Shown here piece by piece: positions 18,165 through 32,860 of a stretch of DNA of 33,937 bases (position 1 is the stretch's first letter; the number at the start of each line of letters is the position of its first letter). A program made the translations under genes and the position numbers. The DNA lies in the NCBI RefSeq assembly GCF_900128465.1, contig NZ_LT635868.1:663597-697533 (forward strand), given 5' to 3'. Source of the DNA: Actinomyces bouchesdurhonensis. GTDB lineage: Bacteria > Actinomycetota > Actinomycetes > Actinomycetales > Actinomycetaceae. The notes below the pieces were generated by a model, which ran no database searches, was not told where the DNA came from, and worked only from the letters and a program-made list of their open reading frames with translations.

Positions 18165-19409
18165 ATGAATGCTGCAAGTGATGACTTGACCGGGAGCGCG
18201 ATCCGTCCGATAGCTATTGGCATGGATGGCGATCCCGTCCCCGATCCGCCGACGTTGTCATCGAGTGTGCCAGGCATGTCCGCCCCGCTGTCGGCTTGTA
18301 CATACAGCCCTGGACAGGGCCAGTTTCCGATGGGTGAGCCGATTGCGATGGCACCGGCGATGGCTGGGGGAGTTCAGCCCTTAGTCACTGCGGTCTCCCA
18401 GCGTCCGCGCAAGCGCGCCAACCCCATTTTTTTCGCTGCCCTGTTCCTCGTTGTACTCGCGGTGGTAGCAGTTGGCAGCTTCGTCCTTGCGAACTCAATG
18501 CGTACACCCGAAGCGCAGGTGCGCCGTTACCTGGACTACCTCGCACAAGGGAACGCCAGCGCTGCCACAGCGATGGTTGATCCAGGTGTGGCCAACGATG
18601 AACGCGTCTTTTTAACGGACGAGGTCATGGCCTCGGCAACCTCGCTGCTGCAGGTCGAAGATGTCGTTGACAGGGATGAGGGGCGCACATCGAAGAAACA
18701 CACCGTAAACGCCACAGTGACGGTCGGCGATGTCCATTTTACCTTCCCCTTTGAAGTCCAAGAAAGCAAACCGACACTGGGAATCATCAAGAACTGGACG
18801 ATCCAAAACGCCCTAGTCGTTCCCATCGCCGTCAGGATTAAGAATGTGTCGACGTTTAGCATCGGCGGCGTGACGGCGCCCGTCAGTGATGACAATTATT
18901 TCCCATACACGTCCCCGATCTACATGCTGTATCCAGGGGTCTACACGGTGAGTGCCGCCGACCCGGGGGATTATATCGAAGCCGACCCGGTCATCTTCAA
19001 GGCCGCGAGAGACGAGTACAAGTTCGGTGCCGACCCGCTTCGGTATGTGACGGTCGATACATCATACAGTGATTCGTTGCTTGCAGCTGCGGTCGACGCG
19101 ATGGTCGCGCAGACCACGTCGTGCGCCACGCCTCCGGAGAATCTCGATACGGTGTGTCCCTTCGGGCTGCAGCGAACAGATTTGACCATTCTTGAGGTTA
19201 AGCAGATGCCGTCCACGGCGAAACAGTGGGATGACGACCCATCCGAGTTCCACGATTACGCCTTCTTTAAGGTGCAACAGGGGGCCGGGACTCCGATCTA
19301 CACCCTGAAGTCAACTGTGTACGCGACGTTGAAGTTTGACGAAAACGGAAAGATGGTGGTCGATTCTGCTGGTAAGCCTCAGTTCTGGCTGAGGTACGAG
19401 GTAGAATAG
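18165..19409 (+). CDS. Membrane-anchored paralog 1 (TcaA/YvbJ-like architecture, function unknown)
   Basis: First of six related proteins in the window, 414 residues. ATG 18165 follows GAGGAG by 6 bases. Layout: polar, Pro-rich N-terminal tail (1-80), basic stop RPRKR, one membrane helix (about 88-109), then the family block RTPEAQVRRYLDYLAQGNAS and a VDPGVANDERVFLTDEVMAS segment. The outer domain has MLYPGVYTVSAADPGDY, the invariant pair Cys320-x10-Cys331, and ends DSAGKPQFWLRYEVE. By the positive-inside rule the C terminus is outside. It is the most divergent of the first four copies. The likeness to TcaA/YvbJ-type proteins (helix, NTF2-like and YPGxY modules) is an impression and needs a profile search. 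Confidence 0.88.
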   Translation: MNAASDDLTGSAIRPIAIGMDGDPVPDPPTLSSSVPGMSAPLSACTYSPGQGQFPMGEPIAMAPAMAGGVQPLVTAVSQRPRKRANPIFFAALFLVVLAVVAVGSFVLANSMRTPEAQVRRYLDYLAQGNASAATAMVDPGVANDERVFLTDEVMASATSLLQVEDVVDRDEGRTSKKHTVNATVTVGDVHFTFPFEVQESKPTLGIIKNWTIQNALVVPIAVRIKNVSTFSIGGVTAPVSDDNYFPYTSPIYMLYPGVYTVSAADPGDYIEADPVIFKAARDEYKFGADPLRYVTVDTSYSDSLLAAAVDAMVAQTTSCATPPENLDTVCPFGLQRTDLTILEVKQMPSTAKQWDDDPSEFHDYAFFKVQQGAGTPIYTLKSTVYATLKFDENGKMVVDSAGKPQFWLRYEVE

Positions 19410-19455: not shown

Positions 19456-19460
19456 CTCGT

Positions 19461-20133
19461 ATCCGCTTTGTGACCCGGCTTTGACTCTTTCCCACTGGCG
19501 TGTGATCATAGGCACGTCTTTTTGACCGGTGGTCGGTATCGCCTCGTTTGTCGCCCGATGTCGACGCCGGAGTTTTTGTGCATCGTGAGGAGCGAGTCGT
19601 GAATACTGACAACAACGAAACCATCGGCGCCGATATACCTGTGCCATCCCCAACGACGGTTGGTCCTACTCCCGGCGCCGCCTCTGTCGTTACTTCTGGT
19701 GCCGGCCCTGTTCCGGGTCCTGGTGCCGCCCCTGTTCCGGGTCCTGGTGTGGCGCCCGCTGCGGGGGTGTCGTTTGCTCCCGTCTCGCCACGCGCTAAGA
19801 AGCGAGTGAAGCTGATTGGCGCCCTGGTGGGTGTTCTCGTGGTGCTGGTGATCGCTGGCGTGGTGGCGATCAAGGTTGTTAATAGTTCGCGCACGCCCGA
19901 GGCCGAGGTGCGCAGGTACCTGGATCTGCTGGCTTCTGGTCAGGCCAGTGCGGCGACGGCCATGGTGGATCCGGGTGTGAATAACGACCAGCGTACCTTC
20001 CTGACTGACGACGTGATGGCCTCGGCGAGTTCGCTGCTGGTCATCGAGGACGTGGTTGCCGACAAGAACGAGGGTTCCGACACGCGCACGGTGACCGCCA
20101 CCATGCAGGTCAACGGCGAACGCTTCACCCACG
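19461..20133 (+). repeat. Long near-identical direct repeat, copy A
   Basis: This block (promoter, leader, N-terminal tail, membrane helix and first outer domain of paralog 2) is repeated at 20852-21548 with a single 24-base insertion and, by eye, about three base changes. Identity stops abruptly at CGCTTCACCCACG. Confidence 0.93.
19481..19509 (+). promoter_or_regulatory. Promoter of membrane paralog 2
   Basis: TTGACT (19481-19486), 17-base spacer, GATCAT (19504-19509). It aligns with the promoter of paralog 4 (TTGACT-N17-GATACT), including an upstream TATCCGCT-type block and a downstream GGCACG. Confidence 0.55.
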
Positions 20134-20789
20134 ACTTCACCGTGACGATGGGGAAGTCGACGTTGGGCGTTCTGAATAACTGGACAGTGAAGGACTCTCT
20201 TGCCGCGCAAGTGAGCGTTGATGCTGAAGGGTACACTCAGTTCACCGTCGGTGGCACGAGCGCCGATGTGTCCTCGGCGGTCCGCAGTGGCAAGGACGAC
20301 GCCTACCTCTTCTACCCCGGCGTCTACACGTTCACGCCAGTCGCGCCGAACGAGTATGCAAACTCTAACCCGGAGACGGTGTCGGTCCTCGATGATGGTT
20401 TGGGTGACAACAGCGCCGTTGTGACGCTGAAGGCCACCTATAACGCAAAGTTGACAGCAGCAGCGATAGCGGCAGGACAGCAGAGTGTTGACTCCTGCAC
20501 GTCCATCCCAGGCAACCAGAACTCTTCATGCCCATTCGCGATCCAGAGTGATGCGGTCACCGAGGTGACGGGGTTCATGCCTAAAGCGCTGGCACCAGTG
20601 TCCGACGACCAGCCGACAGTATTCCGGGCGTCTGTCATCTTCACAGCGACATACTCCAACAAGTACTACATGGCAGGCACACGAGACGTGGAGGCCAATG
20701 TGGAGATTCGCGCGCAGCTGGATGACGACAAGGTGCTCAAACTGGACAAGGACGGCAATCCCGAGTTCACGGTGAGCTTTACCCGCTGA
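19599..20789 (+). CDS. Membrane-anchored paralog 2
   Basis: A 396-residue family member. GTG 19599 lies 6 bases after GAGGAG, the same spacing as its relatives; an ATG further up (19548) lacks a ribosome site. The N-terminal tail is rich in Pro, Gly, Ala and Val with a repeated PVPGPG(A/V)AP octamer (37-53), followed by RAKKR, one helix (about 72-92, LIGALVGVLVVLVIAGVVAI) and RTPEAEVRRYLDLLASGQAS. The distal part has LFYPGVYTFTPVAPNEY and the SC-TSIPGNQNSS-C pair. Residues up to about 178 are almost identical to paralog 3; the rest is closer to paralog 4 (shared SIPGNQNS, QSDAVT). Own promoter and terminator. Function unknown. Confidence 0.9.
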   Translation: MNTDNNETIGADIPVPSPTTVGPTPGAASVVTSGAGPVPGPGAAPVPGPGVAPAAGVSFAPVSPRAKKRVKLIGALVGVLVVLVIAGVVAIKVVNSSRTPEAEVRRYLDLLASGQASAATAMVDPGVNNDQRTFLTDDVMASASSLLVIEDVVADKNEGSDTRTVTATMQVNGERFTHDFTVTMGKSTLGVLNNWTVKDSLAAQVSVDAEGYTQFTVGGTSADVSSAVRSGKDDAYLFYPGVYTFTPVAPNEYANSNPETVSVLDDGLGDNSAVVTLKATYNAKLTAAAIAAGQQSVDSCTSIPGNQNSSCPFAIQSDAVTEVTGFMPKALAPVSDDQPTVFRASVIFTATYSNKYYMAGTRDVEANVEIRAQLDDDKVLKLDKDGNPEFTVSFTR

Positions 20790-20816
20790 GGCAGTGTCTG
20801 TGCGTTTCTAATCCGT

Positions 20817-20850
20817 GATGGTGCCCTCGGCCTAACACGGGGGCACCATC
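20817..20850 (+). terminator. Terminator after paralog 2
   Basis: GATGGTGCCC (20817-20826) pairs perfectly with GGGCACCATC (20841-20850) over a 14-base loop. It starts 27 bases after the stop and is followed by the conserved TATCCGCTTT block of the next promoter region. Confidence 0.7.
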
Positions 20851-20851
20851 T

Positions 20852-21548
20852 ATCCGCTTTGTGACCCGGCTTTGACTCTTTCCCACTGGCGTGTGATCAT
20901 AGGCACGTCTTTTTGACCGGTGGTCGGTATCGCCTCGTTTGTCGCCCGATGTTGACGCCGGAGTTTTTGTGCATCGTGAGGAGCGAGTCGTGAATACTGA
21001 CAACAACGAAACCATCGGCGCCGATATACCTGTGCCATCCCCAACGACGGTTGGTCCTACTCCCGGCGCCGCCTCTGTCGTTACTTCTGGTGCCGGCCCT
21101 GTTCCGGGTCCTGGTACCGCCCCTGTTCCGGGTCCTGGTACCGCCCCTGTTCCGGGTCCTGGTGTGGCGCCCGCTGCGGGGGTGTCGTTCGCTCCCGTCT
21201 CGCCACGCGCTAAGAAGCGAGTGAAGCTGATTGGCGCCCTGGTGGGTGTTCTCGTGGTGCTGGTGATCGCTGGCGTGGTGGCGATCAAGGTTGTTAATAG
21301 TTCGCGCACGCCCGAGGCCGAGGTGCGCAGGTACCTGGATCTGCTGGCTTCTGGTCAGGCCAGTGCGGCGACGGCCATGGTGGATCCGGGTGTGAATAAC
21401 GACCAGCGTACCTTCCTGACTGACGACGTGATGGCCTCGGCGAGTTCGCTGCTGGTCATCGAGGACGTGGTTGCCGACAAGAACGAGGGTTCCGACACGC
21501 GCACGGTGACCGCCACCATGCAGGTCAACGGCGAACGCTTCACCCACG
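20852..21548 (+). repeat. Long near-identical direct repeat, copy B
   Basis: Second copy of the block at 19461-20133, covering the promoter and first half of paralog 3. It carries one extra 24-base unit in the PVPGPG-coding stretch. After 21548 the two genes are clearly different. Confidence 0.93.
20872..20900 (+). promoter_or_regulatory. Promoter of membrane paralog 3
   Basis: TTGACT (20872-20877), 17-base spacer, GATCAT (20895-20900). Identical to the promoter of paralog 2 because it lies inside the duplicated block. Confidence 0.55.
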
Positions 21549-22213
21549 CGTTTCGGGTCACCTCCGGTCAAGCAACGATGGGAATCCTTGATAACTGGAA
21601 GATTCGGGACTCGCTGGCAGTGCCTGTGACCGTCGACGGCGACGGCATCGATCAATTTTCTGTCGGTGACACTAAGGCCTCTATCGACAAGGCAAGCTTC
21701 TACATGGAGGGGCGTTCCTTCCTCTTCTATCCGGGCGCATACAATTTCACGCCCGTCGCGCCCAACGAGTACGTTGACACGACTCCCGTCGCCGTCTCCG
21801 TGCTTGACGACGTTCGCACTGCGGGCGGCGATGGCAGGAGTGACGTGACCTTCAAAGCAACCTACAACGACAAGCTTGAAGCCGCCGCTCTCGAAGCGGC
21901 TCAGGCGCTCGTTGAATCGTGTGGGACCTATCCGGGCAACCAGGGTGACGACTGCTCGTCCCTGATTCAGGGAGAAAACGTCACCGCTATTTCCATCAAG
22001 GAAATGCCAACATCTCTCGAGTCCTACAGCTTCGATCCAACGTCATTTTCTGGGGGCGTGACGTACACGGTCACGACAGGGGAGGGAGCACTGTTCCCCG
22101 GAACTCGGGACGTCGGCCTGACGGTGAAGGTCGACGCGCGTTTCAATGACGACGGAGTGATGATGATGACCGCTGACGGTAAGCCGGACTTTAGAGTGTC
22201 CTTCGCCTTCTAG
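20990..22213 (+). CDS. Membrane-anchored paralog 3 (chimeric copy)
   Basis: A 407-residue member starting at GTG 20990, 6 bases after GAGGAG. The N-terminal half is a copy of paralog 2 with one extra PVPGPGTA octamer. The helix is about 80-100. From GERFTHAF on the sequence departs: VTSGQATMGILDNWKIRDSL, LFYPGAYNFTPVAPNEY, SC-GTYPGNQGDD-C, and the end TADGKPDFRVSFAF. So the membrane-proximal part is conserved and the distal part is replaced. This is best explained by duplication followed by recombination. Own promoter and a very strong terminator. Function unknown. Confidence 0.9.
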   Translation: MNTDNNETIGADIPVPSPTTVGPTPGAASVVTSGAGPVPGPGTAPVPGPGTAPVPGPGVAPAAGVSFAPVSPRAKKRVKLIGALVGVLVVLVIAGVVAIKVVNSSRTPEAEVRRYLDLLASGQASAATAMVDPGVNNDQRTFLTDDVMASASSLLVIEDVVADKNEGSDTRTVTATMQVNGERFTHAFRVTSGQATMGILDNWKIRDSLAVPVTVDGDGIDQFSVGDTKASIDKASFYMEGRSFLFYPGAYNFTPVAPNEYVDTTPVAVSVLDDVRTAGGDGRSDVTFKATYNDKLEAAALEAAQALVESCGTYPGNQGDDCSSLIQGENVTAISIKEMPTSLESYSFDPTSFSGGVTYTVTTGEGALFPGTRDVGLTVKVDARFNDDGVMMMTADGKPDFRVSFAF

Positions 22214-22294: not shown

Positions 22295-22323
22295 TTGACT
22301 GACCGCGCGCACAGCGTGATACT
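22295..22323 (+). promoter_or_regulatory. Promoter of membrane paralog 4
   Basis: TTGACT (22295-22300), 17-base spacer, GATACT (22318-22323), the best of the family promoters. The upstream TATCCGCTCCGTGATC resembles the block before paralogs 2 and 3. Confidence 0.6.
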
Positions 22324-22408
22324 GGGCACGCCAAAGCGGCTGGATGACGGGCACGCGGAACGCGTCTCGCTCCCGGCTGCGGATTGTCAACGTTGTGAGG
22401 AGCACATG

Positions 22409-23542
22409 ATGGGCACTGAGAAGAATGAAGCGAACGCGGCACCGATACCCGCACCGCCCGCAACCCCAGAGGTTCCGGCTCCACCGACGTCCGCTGGGGC
22501 AGGCGTGTCGCCCACGCCTGCCCCTGGCCGGGGCAAGAAGCGAGCGATGGTGATCGGAACCCTCGTTGGTGTCCTCGTGGTGCTGGTGATCGCTGGCGTG
22601 GCGGCGATCAAGGTTGTCAATAGCTCTCGTACCCCCGAGGCCGAGGTGCGCAGGTACCTGGATCTGCTGGCTTCTGGAAAGGCCAGTGCGGCGACCGCCA
22701 TGGTTGATCCGGGCGTGCCGGACGACCAGCGTGTCTTCCTGACCGACGACGTCATGGCCTCGTCCCAATCACTGCTCGTTGTCGAAGAAGTGGTGGCCGA
22801 CAAGAATGAGGATCTCCAGACGCGTCAGGTTTCGGCCACCGTACAGGTCAACGGGGAACGCTTCACCCACGCCTTCACCGTCACCAAGGACAAGCCGACG
22901 ATGGGCGTCCTGAATAACTGGACGGTGAAGAACTCACTGGCTGCTCCGGTCAGCGTCGACGCACAGGGATACACCCAGTTCACCGTCGGTGGTGTGAGCG
23001 CCGATGCCCCTCGAGAGTTTGTCGCCGACAAGTCGGCCACCTACCTCTTCTACCCCGGCGTCTACACGTTCACGCCCGTCGCCCCGAGCGAATACGTGAA
23101 CGTTAACACCAAGACCGTTACCGTCCTCGATGGCGTCCACGGTAGGTTCGCCAACCATGCCGATGCCGCTGATGTTTCCCTAGAAGCGACCTACAGCGAT
23201 AAGCTGAAGGAGGCGGCGCTTGAATCCGCAAAGGAATTCCTGAACTCCTGTGCGTCCATCCCAGGCAACCAAAATTCTAACTGCCCATCCGCCCTCCAAA
23301 GCGACGCGGTCACCGCGATCTCCGTCAAGATAATGCCCACAACGATGGAGCCGATGGACATCGACCCGGGGGTCTTCCAAGGACCAGTCACTTTCGCGGT
23401 GACGTACTCCGACAAGTCCACCACACCGGGCACGCGCGACGTCGACACAACGGTGGTCGTCAACGTCCAATTCAGCAACGATGGGCTACTCAAGCTCACG
23501 TCGGATGGTAAGCCTGACTTCTGGGTTGGTGTATCCCGGTGA
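22409..23542 (+). CDS. Membrane-anchored paralog 4
   Basis: A 377-residue member, the shortest, because its Pro/Ala-rich tail is only about 45 residues. ATG 22409 is 6 bases after GAGGAG; ATG 22406 is too close, and a longer frame from 22295 begins inside the promoter. Basic RGKKR, helix about 47-67, then RTPEAEVRRYLDLLASGKAS, VDPGVPDDQRVFLTDDVMAS, LNNWTVKNSLAAPVSVDAQG, LFYPGVYTFTPVAPSEY, SC-ASIPGNQNSN-C and the end SDGKPDFWVGVSR. Its distal domain is the nearest relative of that in paralog 2. Function unknown. Confidence 0.9.
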   Translation: MGTEKNEANAAPIPAPPATPEVPAPPTSAGAGVSPTPAPGRGKKRAMVIGTLVGVLVVLVIAGVAAIKVVNSSRTPEAEVRRYLDLLASGKASAATAMVDPGVPDDQRVFLTDDVMASSQSLLVVEEVVADKNEDLQTRQVSATVQVNGERFTHAFTVTKDKPTMGVLNNWTVKNSLAAPVSVDAQGYTQFTVGGVSADAPREFVADKSATYLFYPGVYTFTPVAPSEYVNVNTKTVTVLDGVHGRFANHADAADVSLEATYSDKLKEAALESAKEFLNSCASIPGNQNSNCPSALQSDAVTAISVKIMPTTMEPMDIDPGVFQGPVTFAVTYSDKSTTPGTRDVDTTVVVNVQFSNDGLLKLTSDGKPDFWVGVSR

Positions 23543-23743: not shown

Positions 23744-25003
23744 ATGACACAGAACAGCGATGACACTATCCACGGTCTGACGCCTCCTCCCGCCCCCGAC
23801 GGGGGTTCCGGCGCACCTGCAGAGGCCTTCGAACAGACAATGCTCACGCTGCCCATCGACGCCCCTCCCGCCCCTGAACCGACCGCCGCGGGTCTCCCGC
23901 CTGTACCCGAGGTCGGCATTGACACTCCGCCTGCCCCGCACGCGAGTCCATCCCCCGTGTCCCAGCCCGGATCGGCGCTCGCCTTCACTCCCATGTCGCA
24001 GGCGAGTCGCCGTCGGATGAAGCAAAGCGTGATCGTGATCGCGATCCTGGCGGTGATCGGCGGCGTGAGTGCTCTCAGCATCATGTTCGCGAACTGGACG
24101 CGTACCCCAGAGGCCACGGTCCGCCAGTACCTGGACTATCTGGCCGCCGGCAATGCCGATGCGGCGACAGCGATGGCAGATCCGGGTTTAGCCAATGAGC
24201 AGCGCGGGTTCCTGACGAACGCGGTCATGGCCTCGGCCAACTCCCGGATCGTCGTTGAAGACGTTGTCGCCGCGCCGTACGGGGGCAACAAGGTCACCAC
24301 CGTCACCGCCACGATGCAGCTTGACGGAGAACGCTTCACCTATTCCTTCGGTGTGACCGCCGCGAAGCCTACGTTGGGCCTGCTGAAAAACTGGAAGATG
24401 CAAAACGCCCTGGTTGCGCGCGTGAATATTACCGGCAAGAAGGTTTCCTACTTCACGGTCGGCGGGGCGAAAGGGTCGATCAATATCGGGGCTCTCTCGG
24501 GCGGCTCGGACTACGTGTTCTACCCGGGGGTCTATACTTTCACTCCAGCTGACATTGGCGACTACATTGACGCTGCACCCGTAACGGCGCGTGTGAAGGC
24601 AGATATGGCCGCAACCAGCAGGGGGGTCGCCAGCACCAGCGTGACGTTGACGGGTGCGTACAACGATGCGTTGGCCTCGGCGGCACTGGATGCTGCCATT
24701 GCTCTGACAAACTCCTGCGCGACCGCCCCCGGCAACACCAACAAGGCATGTCCTCTGAAGGTGCAATCCACTGATCTGTCGGTGCTGGAGGTCGCGAGCT
24801 TGCCCACGTCGTTGCAGCCCGATCCGTTCTGGGATCGCACGTACACGGGTCGGGCAACATTTCGGATCAAGGGTTCGGGGCGCAATAGTAAGGTCGAGGA
24901 CATTGAACGGACGTTCACGGTGAACGTCAAGGCGGAGGATAGCGGTACGCTTATTCTCGATTCGTCGGGCAAGCCGCAGTTCAAAGTGACCTTCGACTGG
25001 TAA
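23744..25003 (+). CDS. Membrane-anchored paralog 5
   Basis: A 419-residue member. ATG 23744 follows GTGAGGAGCATCG. It has the longest Pro/Ala-rich tail (1-88), then SRRRMK, helix about 95-115, RTPEATVRQYLDYLAAGNAD, ADPGLANEQRGFLTNAVMAS, ERFTYSFGVTAAKPTLGLLK, VFYPGVYTFTPADIGDY, SC-ATAPGNTNKA-C and the end SSGKPQFKVTFDW. It is more diverged than copies 2-4. It ends with a strong hairpin before the tetR-putA module. Function unknown. Confidence 0.9.
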   Translation: MTQNSDDTIHGLTPPPAPDGGSGAPAEAFEQTMLTLPIDAPPAPEPTAAGLPPVPEVGIDTPPAPHASPSPVSQPGSALAFTPMSQASRRRMKQSVIVIAILAVIGGVSALSIMFANWTRTPEATVRQYLDYLAAGNADAATAMADPGLANEQRGFLTNAVMASANSRIVVEDVVAAPYGGNKVTTVTATMQLDGERFTYSFGVTAAKPTLGLLKNWKMQNALVARVNITGKKVSYFTVGGAKGSINIGALSGGSDYVFYPGVYTFTPADIGDYIDAAPVTARVKADMAATSRGVASTSVTLTGAYNDALASAALDAAIALTNSCATAPGNTNKACPLKVQSTDLSVLEVASLPTSLQPDPFWDRTYTGRATFRIKGSGRNSKVEDIERTFTVNVKAEDSGTLILDSSGKPQFKVTFDW

Positions 25004-29860: not shown

Positions 29861-31087
29861 GTGGGTACGAGTCAATACACCACCAACGGAGATTCGTTTG
29901 CGCGATTTGGAGGAGACATGTCGAGCCGTGGTACGTCATCGTACGACGGCAGTGTCAGTACGCAGGGTGCGCGTGTCCGCTTGTTAGAAGACGGAACCCT
30001 CGCGCAAGCTTCCCCTGGAGGTTTCGGCGGGAAGGATTTTGGTGCTTATCCGACATCTGCGCGCCACAAGCGCCGCTCGGTTGGCATGGTCATCGCCTTC
30101 ATCGTCGTGATCGTGCTCATCGGCGTGGGCGTGGTTGGGGTTGTTGTTGCCAGATCAATGCGCACTCCCGAGGCTCAGGTTCAGCGCTATCTCGATCTGT
30201 TGTCCAGCGGGCAGGCCAGTGCCGCCTCGAAGATGGTCGATCCTGGCATTCCCAGCGAGCAGCGCGCATTTTTGACGGACGAAGTCCTTGGAGCCACGCC
30301 CAACCGTTTGATCGTCGAGAAGATCGTCGACATGAATGAGGGCTCGTCGTCCTCTCTGCATCAGGTCAAGGCCACGATGAGCGTCAGAGGAGAGCGTTTT
30401 TCGCAGACCTTCCGGGTCGTGAAGAGGGCTCCAACGCTAGGTTTTTTCGATAACTGGGAGATTCGCGATCCCCTCATCACGAGGATCTACGTGACGGGAC
30501 GCAACGTGGAGGGCATGACCGTCGGCAATGTGCAAGCTACTGCTCCCCTGACGATCGATGGCAGTGTGCGGTGGGCTCTCCTGGCGTTCTATCCCGGCAC
30601 CTACAACCTGGAACCGGAATTGTCCAGCGAGTACGTCAAGGCTGATTCGGTTGAGGTCGTTGCGAAGGGAAACGACGGGCGTCCAGAGGGTTCTGAAGTG
30701 ATGGATGTTGTGGTGACGACCGAATACACCCAGGATATTCGTGAAGCGGCGCTCGCAGCAATTACGGAGAAAACTCACTCGTGCGTGACTCCTCCTGGGA
30801 ACCTTGATCGTGACTGTCCGGTTCCACTGCAGAGCCGCAATCTGGCGGTCCTGGAAGTTCAATTCGAGCCTGTCAGTGTCGAGACCGTGGACTATGAACC
30901 GAACAAGTTCCAGTCGGATCTCTCGTTTTTGATTCGTCCGAATACGTCGGGTGGTTCGCTCCGGTCAGTGCCGGCAGTCGCGATCGCGTCGCTGAGACTC
31001 GACGAATCGGCATCACTCATCCTTGACGCCGACGGTAAACCGACATTCGATGTGAGCATCGAAAAAACGGTTTCCACCGGGTGTTGA
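29861..31087 (+). CDS. Membrane-anchored paralog 6 (separated from the cluster by tetR-putA)
   Basis: A 408-residue member. GTG 29861 lies 6 bases after AGGAG, the family spacing; ATG 29918 (GGAGGAG very close) is an alternative. Its tail is Ser/Gly-rich rather than Pro-rich. Basic RHKRR, helix about 74-97, RTPEAQVQRYLDLLSSGQAS, VDPGIPSEQRAFLTDEVLGA, ERFSQTFRVVKRAPTLGFFD, AFYPGTYNLEPELSSEY, SC-VTPPGNLDRD-C and a DADGKPTFDVSIEK ending with an extra C-terminal TVSTGC. The C-x10-C context is closest to paralog 1. Function unknown. Confidence 0.88.
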   Translation: MGTSQYTTNGDSFARFGGDMSSRGTSSYDGSVSTQGARVRLLEDGTLAQASPGGFGGKDFGAYPTSARHKRRSVGMVIAFIVVIVLIGVGVVGVVVARSMRTPEAQVQRYLDLLSSGQASAASKMVDPGIPSEQRAFLTDEVLGATPNRLIVEKIVDMNEGSSSSLHQVKATMSVRGERFSQTFRVVKRAPTLGFFDNWEIRDPLITRIYVTGRNVEGMTVGNVQATAPLTIDGSVRWALLAFYPGTYNLEPELSSEYVKADSVEVVAKGNDGRPEGSEVMDVVVTTEYTQDIREAALAAITEKTHSCVTPPGNLDRDCPVPLQSRNLAVLEVQFEPVSVETVDYEPNKFQSDLSFLIRPNTSGGSLRSVPAVAIASLRLDESASLILDADGKPTFDVSIEKTVSTGC

Positions 31088-31357: not shown

Positions 31358-31508
31358 GGGGGTTGGCGGTGACGTGCGCTTGCGTCGTCCGTCATTGTGC
31401 TGGCGTGCTCGCGTCGTAGCGCCTCAGACGGAATGCGCCCCATCGGGAGGATTCCACCTGATCGGGGGCGTTCAACCCGTGCGGGAGCATGACGCCAGGG
31501 GTAGTGGT

Positions 31509-31584
31509 GGGGGTTTTGCAGCATTAGAAGCCTCCCTTCGGCGTGTCGCCGGCGTGTCGCGCTTCTAATGGTGCAATTCCCCCC
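31509..31584. repeat. Palindromic element, copy 1
   Basis: A 76-base unit bounded by GGGGGTTTTGCAGCATTAG and CTAATGGTGCAATTCCCCC, imperfect inverted ends. The inner arms CATTAGAAGC and GCTTCTAATG pair perfectly. The centre has a doubled CGGCGTGTCG. No transposase is nearby. Confidence 0.8.
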
Positions 31585-31770
31585 GTTTGGTGGCGGTGAG
31601 GCCGCGGTTCGGGGTGGTGAGGTCGCTGTTCGCGGGTATGTGGCGCCCACAGTGCAGACCACCTCGACGAACAATGGCTGGCATGGGCGTGATGGCCCAG
31701 ATGTTCTGTGATGCGGGCGACTCCGGGACGCAGTTCACCTCTGCGACTCCTCCGCACTCAGGGCTGGTTG

Positions 31771-31845
31771 GGGGGTTTTGCAGCATTAGGAGCCTCCCTT
31801 CGGCGTGTCGTCGGCGTGTCGTGCCTCTAATGGTGCAATTCCCCC
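31771..31845. repeat. Palindromic element, copy 2
   Basis: A 75-base copy with the same ends and the same doubled central CGGCGTGTCG. The inner arms carry changes relative to copy 1 (CATTAGGAGC opposite GCCTCTAATG). Its right flank GTTTACTGTCGGTGAGG is shared with copy 3. Confidence 0.8.
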
Positions 31846-31938
31846 GTTTACTGTCGGTGAGGTCGCGCCTCGGGGCGGTGTGGCGCCCCGGCGGGTAGTC
31901 CTGCACCGGTGAGGGAGCATGACGCCGGGGGTAGTGGT

Positions 31939-32013
31939 GGGGGTTTTGCAGCATTAGGAGTCTCCCTTCGGCGTGTCGTCGGCGTGTCGTGCCTCTAATG
32001 GTGCAATTCCCCC
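31939..32013. repeat. Palindromic element, copy 3
   Basis: A 75-base copy starting 168 bases after copy 2. It shares its left flank (GGGAGCATGACGCC, GGGGTAGTGGT) with copy 1 and its right flank with copy 2. The repeat units are therefore larger than the palindrome. Confidence 0.8.
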
Positions 32014-32050
32014 GTTTACTGTCGGTGAGGTCGCGCCTCGGGGCAGCGTG

Positions 32051-32128
32051 GCGCCCAAGTCGCAGACCACCTCGGTAACAAACGCCGACAATGGGGTGTC
32101 GTGGGCAAGGTGGTCTGCGTTGTGGGCG
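32051..32128. repeat. 78-bp inverted-repeat element
   Basis: GCGCCCA-AGT-CGCAGACCACCT (32051-32072) faces AGGTGGTCTGCG-TTG-TGGGCGC (32107-32128): 19 of 22 positions pair. The left arm recurs alone at about 31643-31664, so the element exists in a second, partial copy. Confidence 0.7.
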
Positions 32129-32654: not shown

Positions 32655-32860
32655 CAACCACCTCCAATACCGACTTTCCCGCACCAGCAAGCCGACAAGT
32701 CACCATAAACCAACACGCTTTGTCCATCCTCCACGTTGGTCCCAACCACCTCCAACACCGATTTTCCCGCATCAACAAGCCGAAAAGTCACCACAAACCA
32801 ACACGTTTTGTCCTTTAACCCCAAGTCGCCACATAACCAACACGTTTTGTCCTTTAACCC
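32655..32860. repeat. Minisatellite, 88-bp period, two and a half units
   Basis: Unit A (32655-32725) and unit B (32743-32813) both run from CAACCACCTCCAA(T/C)ACCGA through CCAACACG(C/T)TTTGTCC. A shortened third unit (32823-32852) keeps only the AAGTC...TTTTGTCC part; TCCTTTAACCC follows B and C. The period is 88 bases between A and B. Confidence 0.8.

Follow-up and report, generated by a model that had tools for sequence, protein, structure and literature searches.

Probable recurrent gene conversion of the 5' halves of two tandem paralogs in Actinomyces bouchesdurhonensis and a congener

Segmental concerted evolution is an already known process, the closest described cases being the homA/homB and babA/babB pairs of Helicobacter pylori. 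Work by Pride and Blaser from 2002 is cited in the babA/babB literature (PMC4552749). In homA/homB, one segment clusters by strain, as under concerted evolution, and another clusters by gene (PMC2795765). A report on babA and babB describes near-identical terminal regions, a divergent middle, and conversion chimeras that include the 5' region (PMC4552749). For tuf and other prokaryotic genes, long-lasting concerted evolution is described, and 22 of the 26 genes concerned encode members of stable complexes (PMC6053082).

The window analyzed here, a 33,937-nucleotide stretch of Actinomyces bouchesdurhonensis contig NZ_LT635868.1, contains two adjacent paralogs, p2 and p3, that can be set beside these systems. 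With homA/homB they share the split behavior of segments within a paralog pair; however, the homA/homB case concerns a 3' segment, strains of one species, and outer membrane proteins (PMC2795765), whereas that of p2/p3 concerns a segment from the promoter to domain 1, a comparison between species, and single-helix membrane proteins of an actinobacterium. The babA/babB pair likewise combines near-identical and divergent regions, with conversion that includes the 5' region, but the bab genes occupy separate loci and their exchange ties phase-variable CT repeats to expression (PMC4552749), whereas p2/p3 have no demonstrated switch. As in the tuf-type cases, paralogs are closer within a genome than orthologs are between genomes, and this recurs in several lineages (PMC6053082); in p2/p3, however, only the 5' half of an envelope protein gene is affected. 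No report of the p2/p3 case was found among the matches listed for the process and the genus; the protein family is nameless and so not searchable. The pair is a clean natural example in which conversion is limited to half of a gene and two species have the boundary in common; it would allow one to ask what maintains such a boundary, selection or mismatch of the sequences by itself.

Gene array and extent of the p2/p3 block

The contig that carries the window is 755,718 bases long and belongs to a 2.3-Mb genome (G000; 30 contigs, 84% complete). Five tandem paralogs (p1 to p5) are located downstream of a gene that we take to be thiL-like and are followed by a TetR regulator gene and a proline dehydrogenase/aldehyde dehydrogenase gene (putA), beyond which a sixth paralog, p6, is found (Table 1). 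Downstream of p6, three copies of a 118- to 140-nt repeat (87% to 97% pairwise identity) occupy positions 31475 to 32056, and related sequence is present at the matching position of the congener G020. A two-copy 39-nt tandem repeat (32785 to 32860) adjoins a pair of 71-nt repeats (32655 and 32743).

Table 1. Features of the p2/p3 array and of long-frame relatives (positions in the window unless a locus is named)
Feature	Position	Strand	Remarks
p1	18165..19409	+	Paralog outside the p2/p3 exchange; 94% amino acid identity to G020 ortholog, dS 0.13
Homogenized block, p2 copy	19460..20133	+	Promoter to inside domain 1
Promoter-like site of p2, TTGACT-17-GATCAT	19481..19509	+	Consensus match only; inside block
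p2 coding sequence	19599..20789	+	GTG start, 396 amino acids; start picked by eye from ribosome-binding site
24-nt tandem repeat, proline-rich tail of p2	19696..19749	+	~2 units
Membrane helix of p2	19797..19886	+	Residues 67 to 96, AlphaFold2; presumably membrane spanning
First outer domain of p2, putatively NTF2-like	19887..20204	+	Residues ~97 to 202; contains breakpoint
Distal half of p2	20134..20789	+	Ortholog of G020 p2; not homogenized with p3
Homogenized block, p3 copy	20851..21548	+	Promoter to inside domain 1
Promoter-like site of p3	20872..20900	+	Consensus match only; inside block
p3 coding sequence	20990..22213	+	GTG start
24-nt tandem repeat, tail of p3	21087..21163	+	~3 units
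Distal half of p3	21549..22213	+	Orthologous to G020 p3 and G022 p3
p4, next paralog	22406..23542	+	79% amino acid identity to p2 over the helix-to-GERFTH part; own promoter-like site at 22295-22323
p5, more distant paralog	23744..25003	+	
p6, outlying paralog	29861..31087	+	
Long-frame relative, L073	1-2727	+	Outer module at frame end
Long-frame relative, L046	5572-8109	-	Outer module at frame end
Long-frame relative, L047	2751-5723	+	Outer module at frame end

By global alignment, the two blocks differ at 3 of 674 sites (19562, 19725, and 19775; 99.6% identity) and by one 24-nt insertion in the p3 copy, which is one extra unit of the 24-nt tandem repeat. The final 358 bases of the block (19776 to 20133) are the same in p2 and p3. 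The first divergent position is 20134/21549, base 2 of the codon that follows GERFTH (GAC versus GCG), and beyond it the two genes are 40% to 78% identical per 50-nt interval. The preliminary description had reported, by eye, nearly identical blocks with a 24-base insertion and about three substitutions, and a sharp stop of identity inside the coding sequence at GERFTH; the alignment, in which identity ends within one codon, bears out both statements. Its block ends were also right, but its starts were each one base late.

The left end of the block lies just upstream of the promoter-like site, after a hairpin, recognized by eye, that differs between p2 and p3. The block contains the promoter-like site, the 5' leader, the start codon, the proline-rich tail, the membrane helix, and most of the first outer domain. 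As a set, the promoter-like sites (four found versus 2.2 ± 1.3 in shuffled sequences) are not clearly above chance. In the AlphaFold2 model of p2 (mean pLDDT, 78.5), a disordered tail (residues 1 to 67), a long helix (67 to 96), and an alpha+beta domain (~97 to 202) are followed by a beta domain (~203 to 282) and a helix plus sheet (283 to 396). The breakpoint, at residue 178/179, falls inside strand 174 to 184 of the first of these domains, and the exchanged unit is therefore no clean domain. The preliminary description had included the first outer domain in the copied part, which is only roughly true: the block holds most of that domain but not the whole of it.

Searches with the block gave two full matches in G000, each with a promoter-like site, and four partial ones, in p1, p4, p5, and p6; in G020 (99% complete, one contig), two full and five partial matches were found. 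No promoterless donor copy of the block was found in G000 (84% complete) or in G020.

Paralogs are closer than orthologs in the block only

The one-contig genome G020, from the same genus, keeps the gene order of the window at its locus L034. The levels of amino acid identity of the orthologs are 94% (p1), 79% (p2), 84% (p3), 84% (p4), and 80% (p6), and G020 also carries a p5-like gene (52% amino acid identity) and one extra paralog. Within G020, the p2 and p3 blocks differ at 5 of 674 aligned sites (99.3% identity) and by 48 nt in the repeat, whereas identity between the window and G020 is ~82% in all four cross-comparisons. For the window, this amounts to ~0.5% differing sites within the block versus 18% between species. 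The 139-nt upstream part behaves in the same way, with 1 of 139 sites differing within each genome and 19% to 20% between genomes. The right edge in G020 is at the same codon as in the window, after GAACGCTTCACCCACG, where GAG follows in p2 and GCC in p3; on the left, the block extends by another ~36 nt and enters the hairpin, one additional substitution being included. Past the right edge, p2 of the window is 76% identical at the amino acid level to p2 of G020, and p3 is 88% identical to p3, whereas p2 and p3 of the same genome are 47% and 45% identical. Higher identity within a genome than between species is thus confined to the block, where it includes synonymous and noncoding sites.

Trees were constructed with IQ-TREE from 22 of the 29 named family members, leaving out as distant or short G020_p0, W_p6 (W denoting the window), G020_p6, G019_c, G019_d, G004_c, and G005_c. 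Three further rows, the G012 fragment, G006, and G007, lie outside the named set; the structure alignment (A2) has 26 rows. Trees and dS values were computed for two segments, one running from the membrane helix to GERFTH and the other comprising the distal part; the tail and promoter are covered by the identity counts, and the comparison rests on one genome per species. In the helix-to-GERFTH tree, W_p2 groups with W_p3 (support, 100/98) and G020_p2 with G020_p3 (100/99), and the approximately unbiased (AU) test rejected the ortholog pairs W_p2 plus G020_p2 (P = 1.5e-9) and W_p3 plus G020_p3 (P = 1.7e-13). The clade of all four genes has support of 94/95, which the program left unstarred. The distal tree has the ortholog pairs instead (p2, 100/99; p3, 96/91), and there the paralog pairs were rejected both for the window (P = 5e-35) and for G020 (P = 2.6e-8). 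All six opposite groupings tested were rejected, the largest AU P value being 2.6e-8 and the smallest 2.8e-127.

For a common set of 120 block codons, dS between p2 and p3 was 0.010 in the window and 0.002 in G020, versus 0.42 and 0.40 between the species; the last homogenization in each lineage is thus recent relative to the species split. In the distal part, dS between the paralogs was 2.8 and 1.5 in the two genomes. The distal orthologs had dN/dS ratios of 0.25 (p2) and 0.16 (p3), which indicates constraint rather than diversification and speaks against antigenic variation; in one 40-codon segment of p2, dN was 0.25 and dS was 0.27.

Among the 609 variable sites from the membrane helix to the stop codon, the longest concordant run was 170 sites for p2/p3 of the window and 94 for p2/p3 of G020, compared with 12 to 25 in the other eight pairs tested. 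The p2/p3 identity block is not due to chance. The run-length permutation test applied to the ten pairs was a simple in-house version and not GENECONV. Low P values were also obtained for pairs with short runs (G020 p3/p4, 0.0008; window p3/p4, 0.004; G020 p2/p4, 0.005; G019 a/b, 0.007; G022 p3/p4, 0.007), which we attribute to conservation that varies along the gene, and we therefore place weight on the run lengths of 170 and 94 and on the trees.

Origin of the pattern and competing explanations

Concerted evolution shows itself in higher identity within than between genomes, in conflicting trees for tract and remainder, and in homogenized silent and noncoding sites, all of which were found here. 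With a probability of roughly 0.86, the 5' halves of p2 and p3 have been recurrently homogenized by gene conversion while the distal halves stayed stable orthologs. On this reading, p2 and p3 would be old, distinct tandem paralogs whose 5' halves are repeatedly made alike by homologous recombination between the copies, the simplest route being nonreciprocal conversion, in which the direct repeats recombine and the event is resolved without a crossover. The exchange would stop at GERFTH since the sequence beyond, only ~55% alike, is probably too different to pair; tracts must then end near GERFTH, and the boundary, once made, could perpetuate itself without a site-specific enzyme. Mismatch of the distal halves would thus account for the same edge in two species, with no dedicated enzyme needed. 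The GERFTH word is largely common to the p2, p3, and p4 genes of both species, so the position of the true tract end is defined no more precisely than this word.

The gene conversion proposed in the preliminary description is strongly supported, and so is its recurrence: block and distal trees conflict, and G020 shows the pattern as well. Its statement that the distal domains of p2 and p3 differ also holds. Cassette-style domain swapping, which it had offered as well, is not borne out: each distal half pairs with its own ortholog in the other species, gene order is unchanged, and both halves evolve under constraint; to judge from the sequences, the exchanged part is the 5' half and not the distal domains.

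Tandem direct repeats of ~674 nt are good substrates for unequal crossing-over, so that the block might be turned over by gain and loss of unit copies and not by nonreciprocal conversion. The number of family members per locus does vary (6 in the window, 7 in G020, 5 in G019, and 3 in G022, whose contig breaks off at this point), and crossing-over with later loss could yield the same end state. However, p1 to p4 and p6 of the window each have a single ortholog in G020, in unchanged order, and neither distal half has been lost, whereas crossing-over from one block to the other would remove one of these halves; we consider this route improbable. A single chimeric duplication, in which one gene received the 5' half of the other in one copying event, would suffice for the window alone. 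A copy made before the species split, however, should leave orthologs together or all four genes unresolved at species distance, and the AU test rejects the ortholog pairs; one made after the split would have to occur twice with the same right edge, which is recurrence. Unless G020 is misassembled, the comparison with that genome appears to have already refuted a single event, which we regard as very unlikely. Selection alone might be thought to keep the 5' halves alike, and the helix-to-GERFTH part is indeed the more conserved part in paralog comparisons. Purifying selection does not explain why synonymous sites and the 139-nt upstream part are nearly identical within genomes but differ at dS of ~0.40 and by 19% to 20%, respectively, between them, and as a sole cause it, too, seems already refuted, with next to no probability left.

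Programmed cassette exchange or phase variation, with distal heads moved behind one expressed front half, would fit the common front, the private heads, and the repeats in the tail. Both copies are complete, however, with promoter-like sites of their own, and neither G000 nor G020 has a further full block; the distal halves are orthologous in the two species and constrained, and no recombinase was found among the 15 window proteins, a subset of the window's genes, scanned with Pfam. Such a system is highly improbable here. An assembly artefact might be suspected in a genome that is 84% complete and in 30 contigs, but the copies differ by three single-nucleotide polymorphisms and a 24-nt unit, have unique flanks, and are arranged alike in the one-contig congener, which makes it scarcely credible.

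Recurrent conversion within each genome is probably not the whole history of the locus. Between the window and G020, dS was 0.13 for p1, 0.38 to 0.54 for p2, p3, p4, and p6, and 0.99 for p5, compared with 0.92 to 1.5 for the flanking thiL, tetR, and putA genes (thiL, 1.5; putA, 0.92). A neighboring gene, presumably RNA methyltransferase-like, had a dS of 0.51. The lower divergence of p1 to p4 and p6 than of thiL and putA complicates a purely within-genome account, and exchange between species has probably touched the array as well. From 18086, where the alignment starts, to ~19384, nucleotide identity is 92% to 100% per 100 nt, with one interval at 82%; it falls to 73% to 81% over the next five intervals and is about 70% to 87% before p1. 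A recent exchange between the two species is probable for this p1 region.

Protein anatomy and relatives in other genomes

In structure comparisons with VIA-align, domain 1 of p2 matched the N-terminal part of Enterococcus PBP2' (5dvy; Z 8.4, 3.2 Å, 97 residues aligned), which we take to be NTF2-like, and the S1C-NTF2 domain of RsgI9 (7sjy; Z 8.0, 2.5 Å, 91 aligned). Domain 2 matched a carboxypeptidase D chain in its C-terminal part (3mn8; Z 6.5, 2.2 Å, 71 aligned), which is presumably transthyretin-like, and domain 3 matched a putative aromatic ring hydroxylase (3b8l; Z 6.8, 3.8 Å, 97 aligned), which we assume to be NTF2-like. These Z values, middling according to the tool's own note, suggest a fold and not a function. 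Foldseek gave no match to the outer domains of p2 at E values up to 0.001 (best weak match, E = 1e-3 and TM = 0.18), and a profile search of the sequences of solved structures gave nothing below an E value of 0.2.

Scans with Pfam and NCBIfam produced no usable family name. The best Pfam hit among the 26 members scanned, a plant cysteine-rich domain (E = 0.001; three members), was taken for chance. The NCBIfam match of p4 to GltJ (E = 6.8e-5), rejected at 22 bits versus a cut-off of 450, extends over the tail and membrane segment. The Rv0361 family (NF051431; Rv0361_Cterm) weakly matched two of five window proteins, both below the cut-off of 37 (p2, E = 0.071 and 13.3 bits; p1, E = 0.15 and 12.2 bits). 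We assume a resemblance to TcaA/YvbJ-type envelope proteins; that family was not among the 22 Pfam families matched by the 26 members at E values up to 1. The array points to an envelope protein family of this bacterial family that has no Pfam name, whose function is only inferred, and that is expanded into arrays in four genomes.

Lys and Arg residues before the helix suggest that p2 and p3 are oriented with the N terminus inside and the C terminus outside. A common stem might then share expression and an inner partner, while the putative transthyretin-like and NTF2-like distal domains could give separate specificities for ligands or partners in the cell envelope. That the array is a selected receptor system of a common stem with private heads is a tentative and rather doubtful extension of the conversion reading. 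Under it, conversion upstream of GERFTH would be tolerated or favored, keeping promoter strength, inner tail, and membrane partner interchangeable, and conversion downstream would be selected against, each head keeping its own ligand. If so, the promoter segment of G019 would follow the same rule on a shorter stem.

The long block was seen in two species only, and a third, G019, has that short homogenized promoter segment. Over the hairpin, promoter, and start, its adjacent genes a and b are identical for 183 nt, with a right end other than that of p2/p3: the identity stops close to codon 6 counted from the likely ATG start, and one difference in the next 28 nt is followed by divergence. Genes a and b cluster in the helix-to-GERFTH tree (96/96), yet with a dS of 0.76 they are not nearly identical. 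In G022, p3 and p4 showed no homogenization (71% identity over 852 nt; dS, 0.84). No p1 or p2 was found in G022, in which the contig (L036) stops ~17 nt before the promoter-like TTTGACT of p3, as judged by eye. A short-read assembly might end in this way at a repeat.

Family matches at E values up to 0.001, many of them weak, were found in 87 of the 213 genomes of the taxonomic family; with at most eight candidates scored per genome, so that copy numbers from this survey are lower bounds, only G000, G020, G019, and G022 had at least three full-length members. Several other genomes have a much longer open frame (Table 1), in which, in the few that were read, a stretch rich in hydrophobic segments is followed by a proline-rich linker and the outer module. 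Elsewhere in G020 (L049, 3979 to 6562), adjacent open frames have stretches of 234 to 278 nt in common, with 90% to 92% identity, in the vicinity of a hydrophobic segment; this locus may be another array with homogenized fronts.
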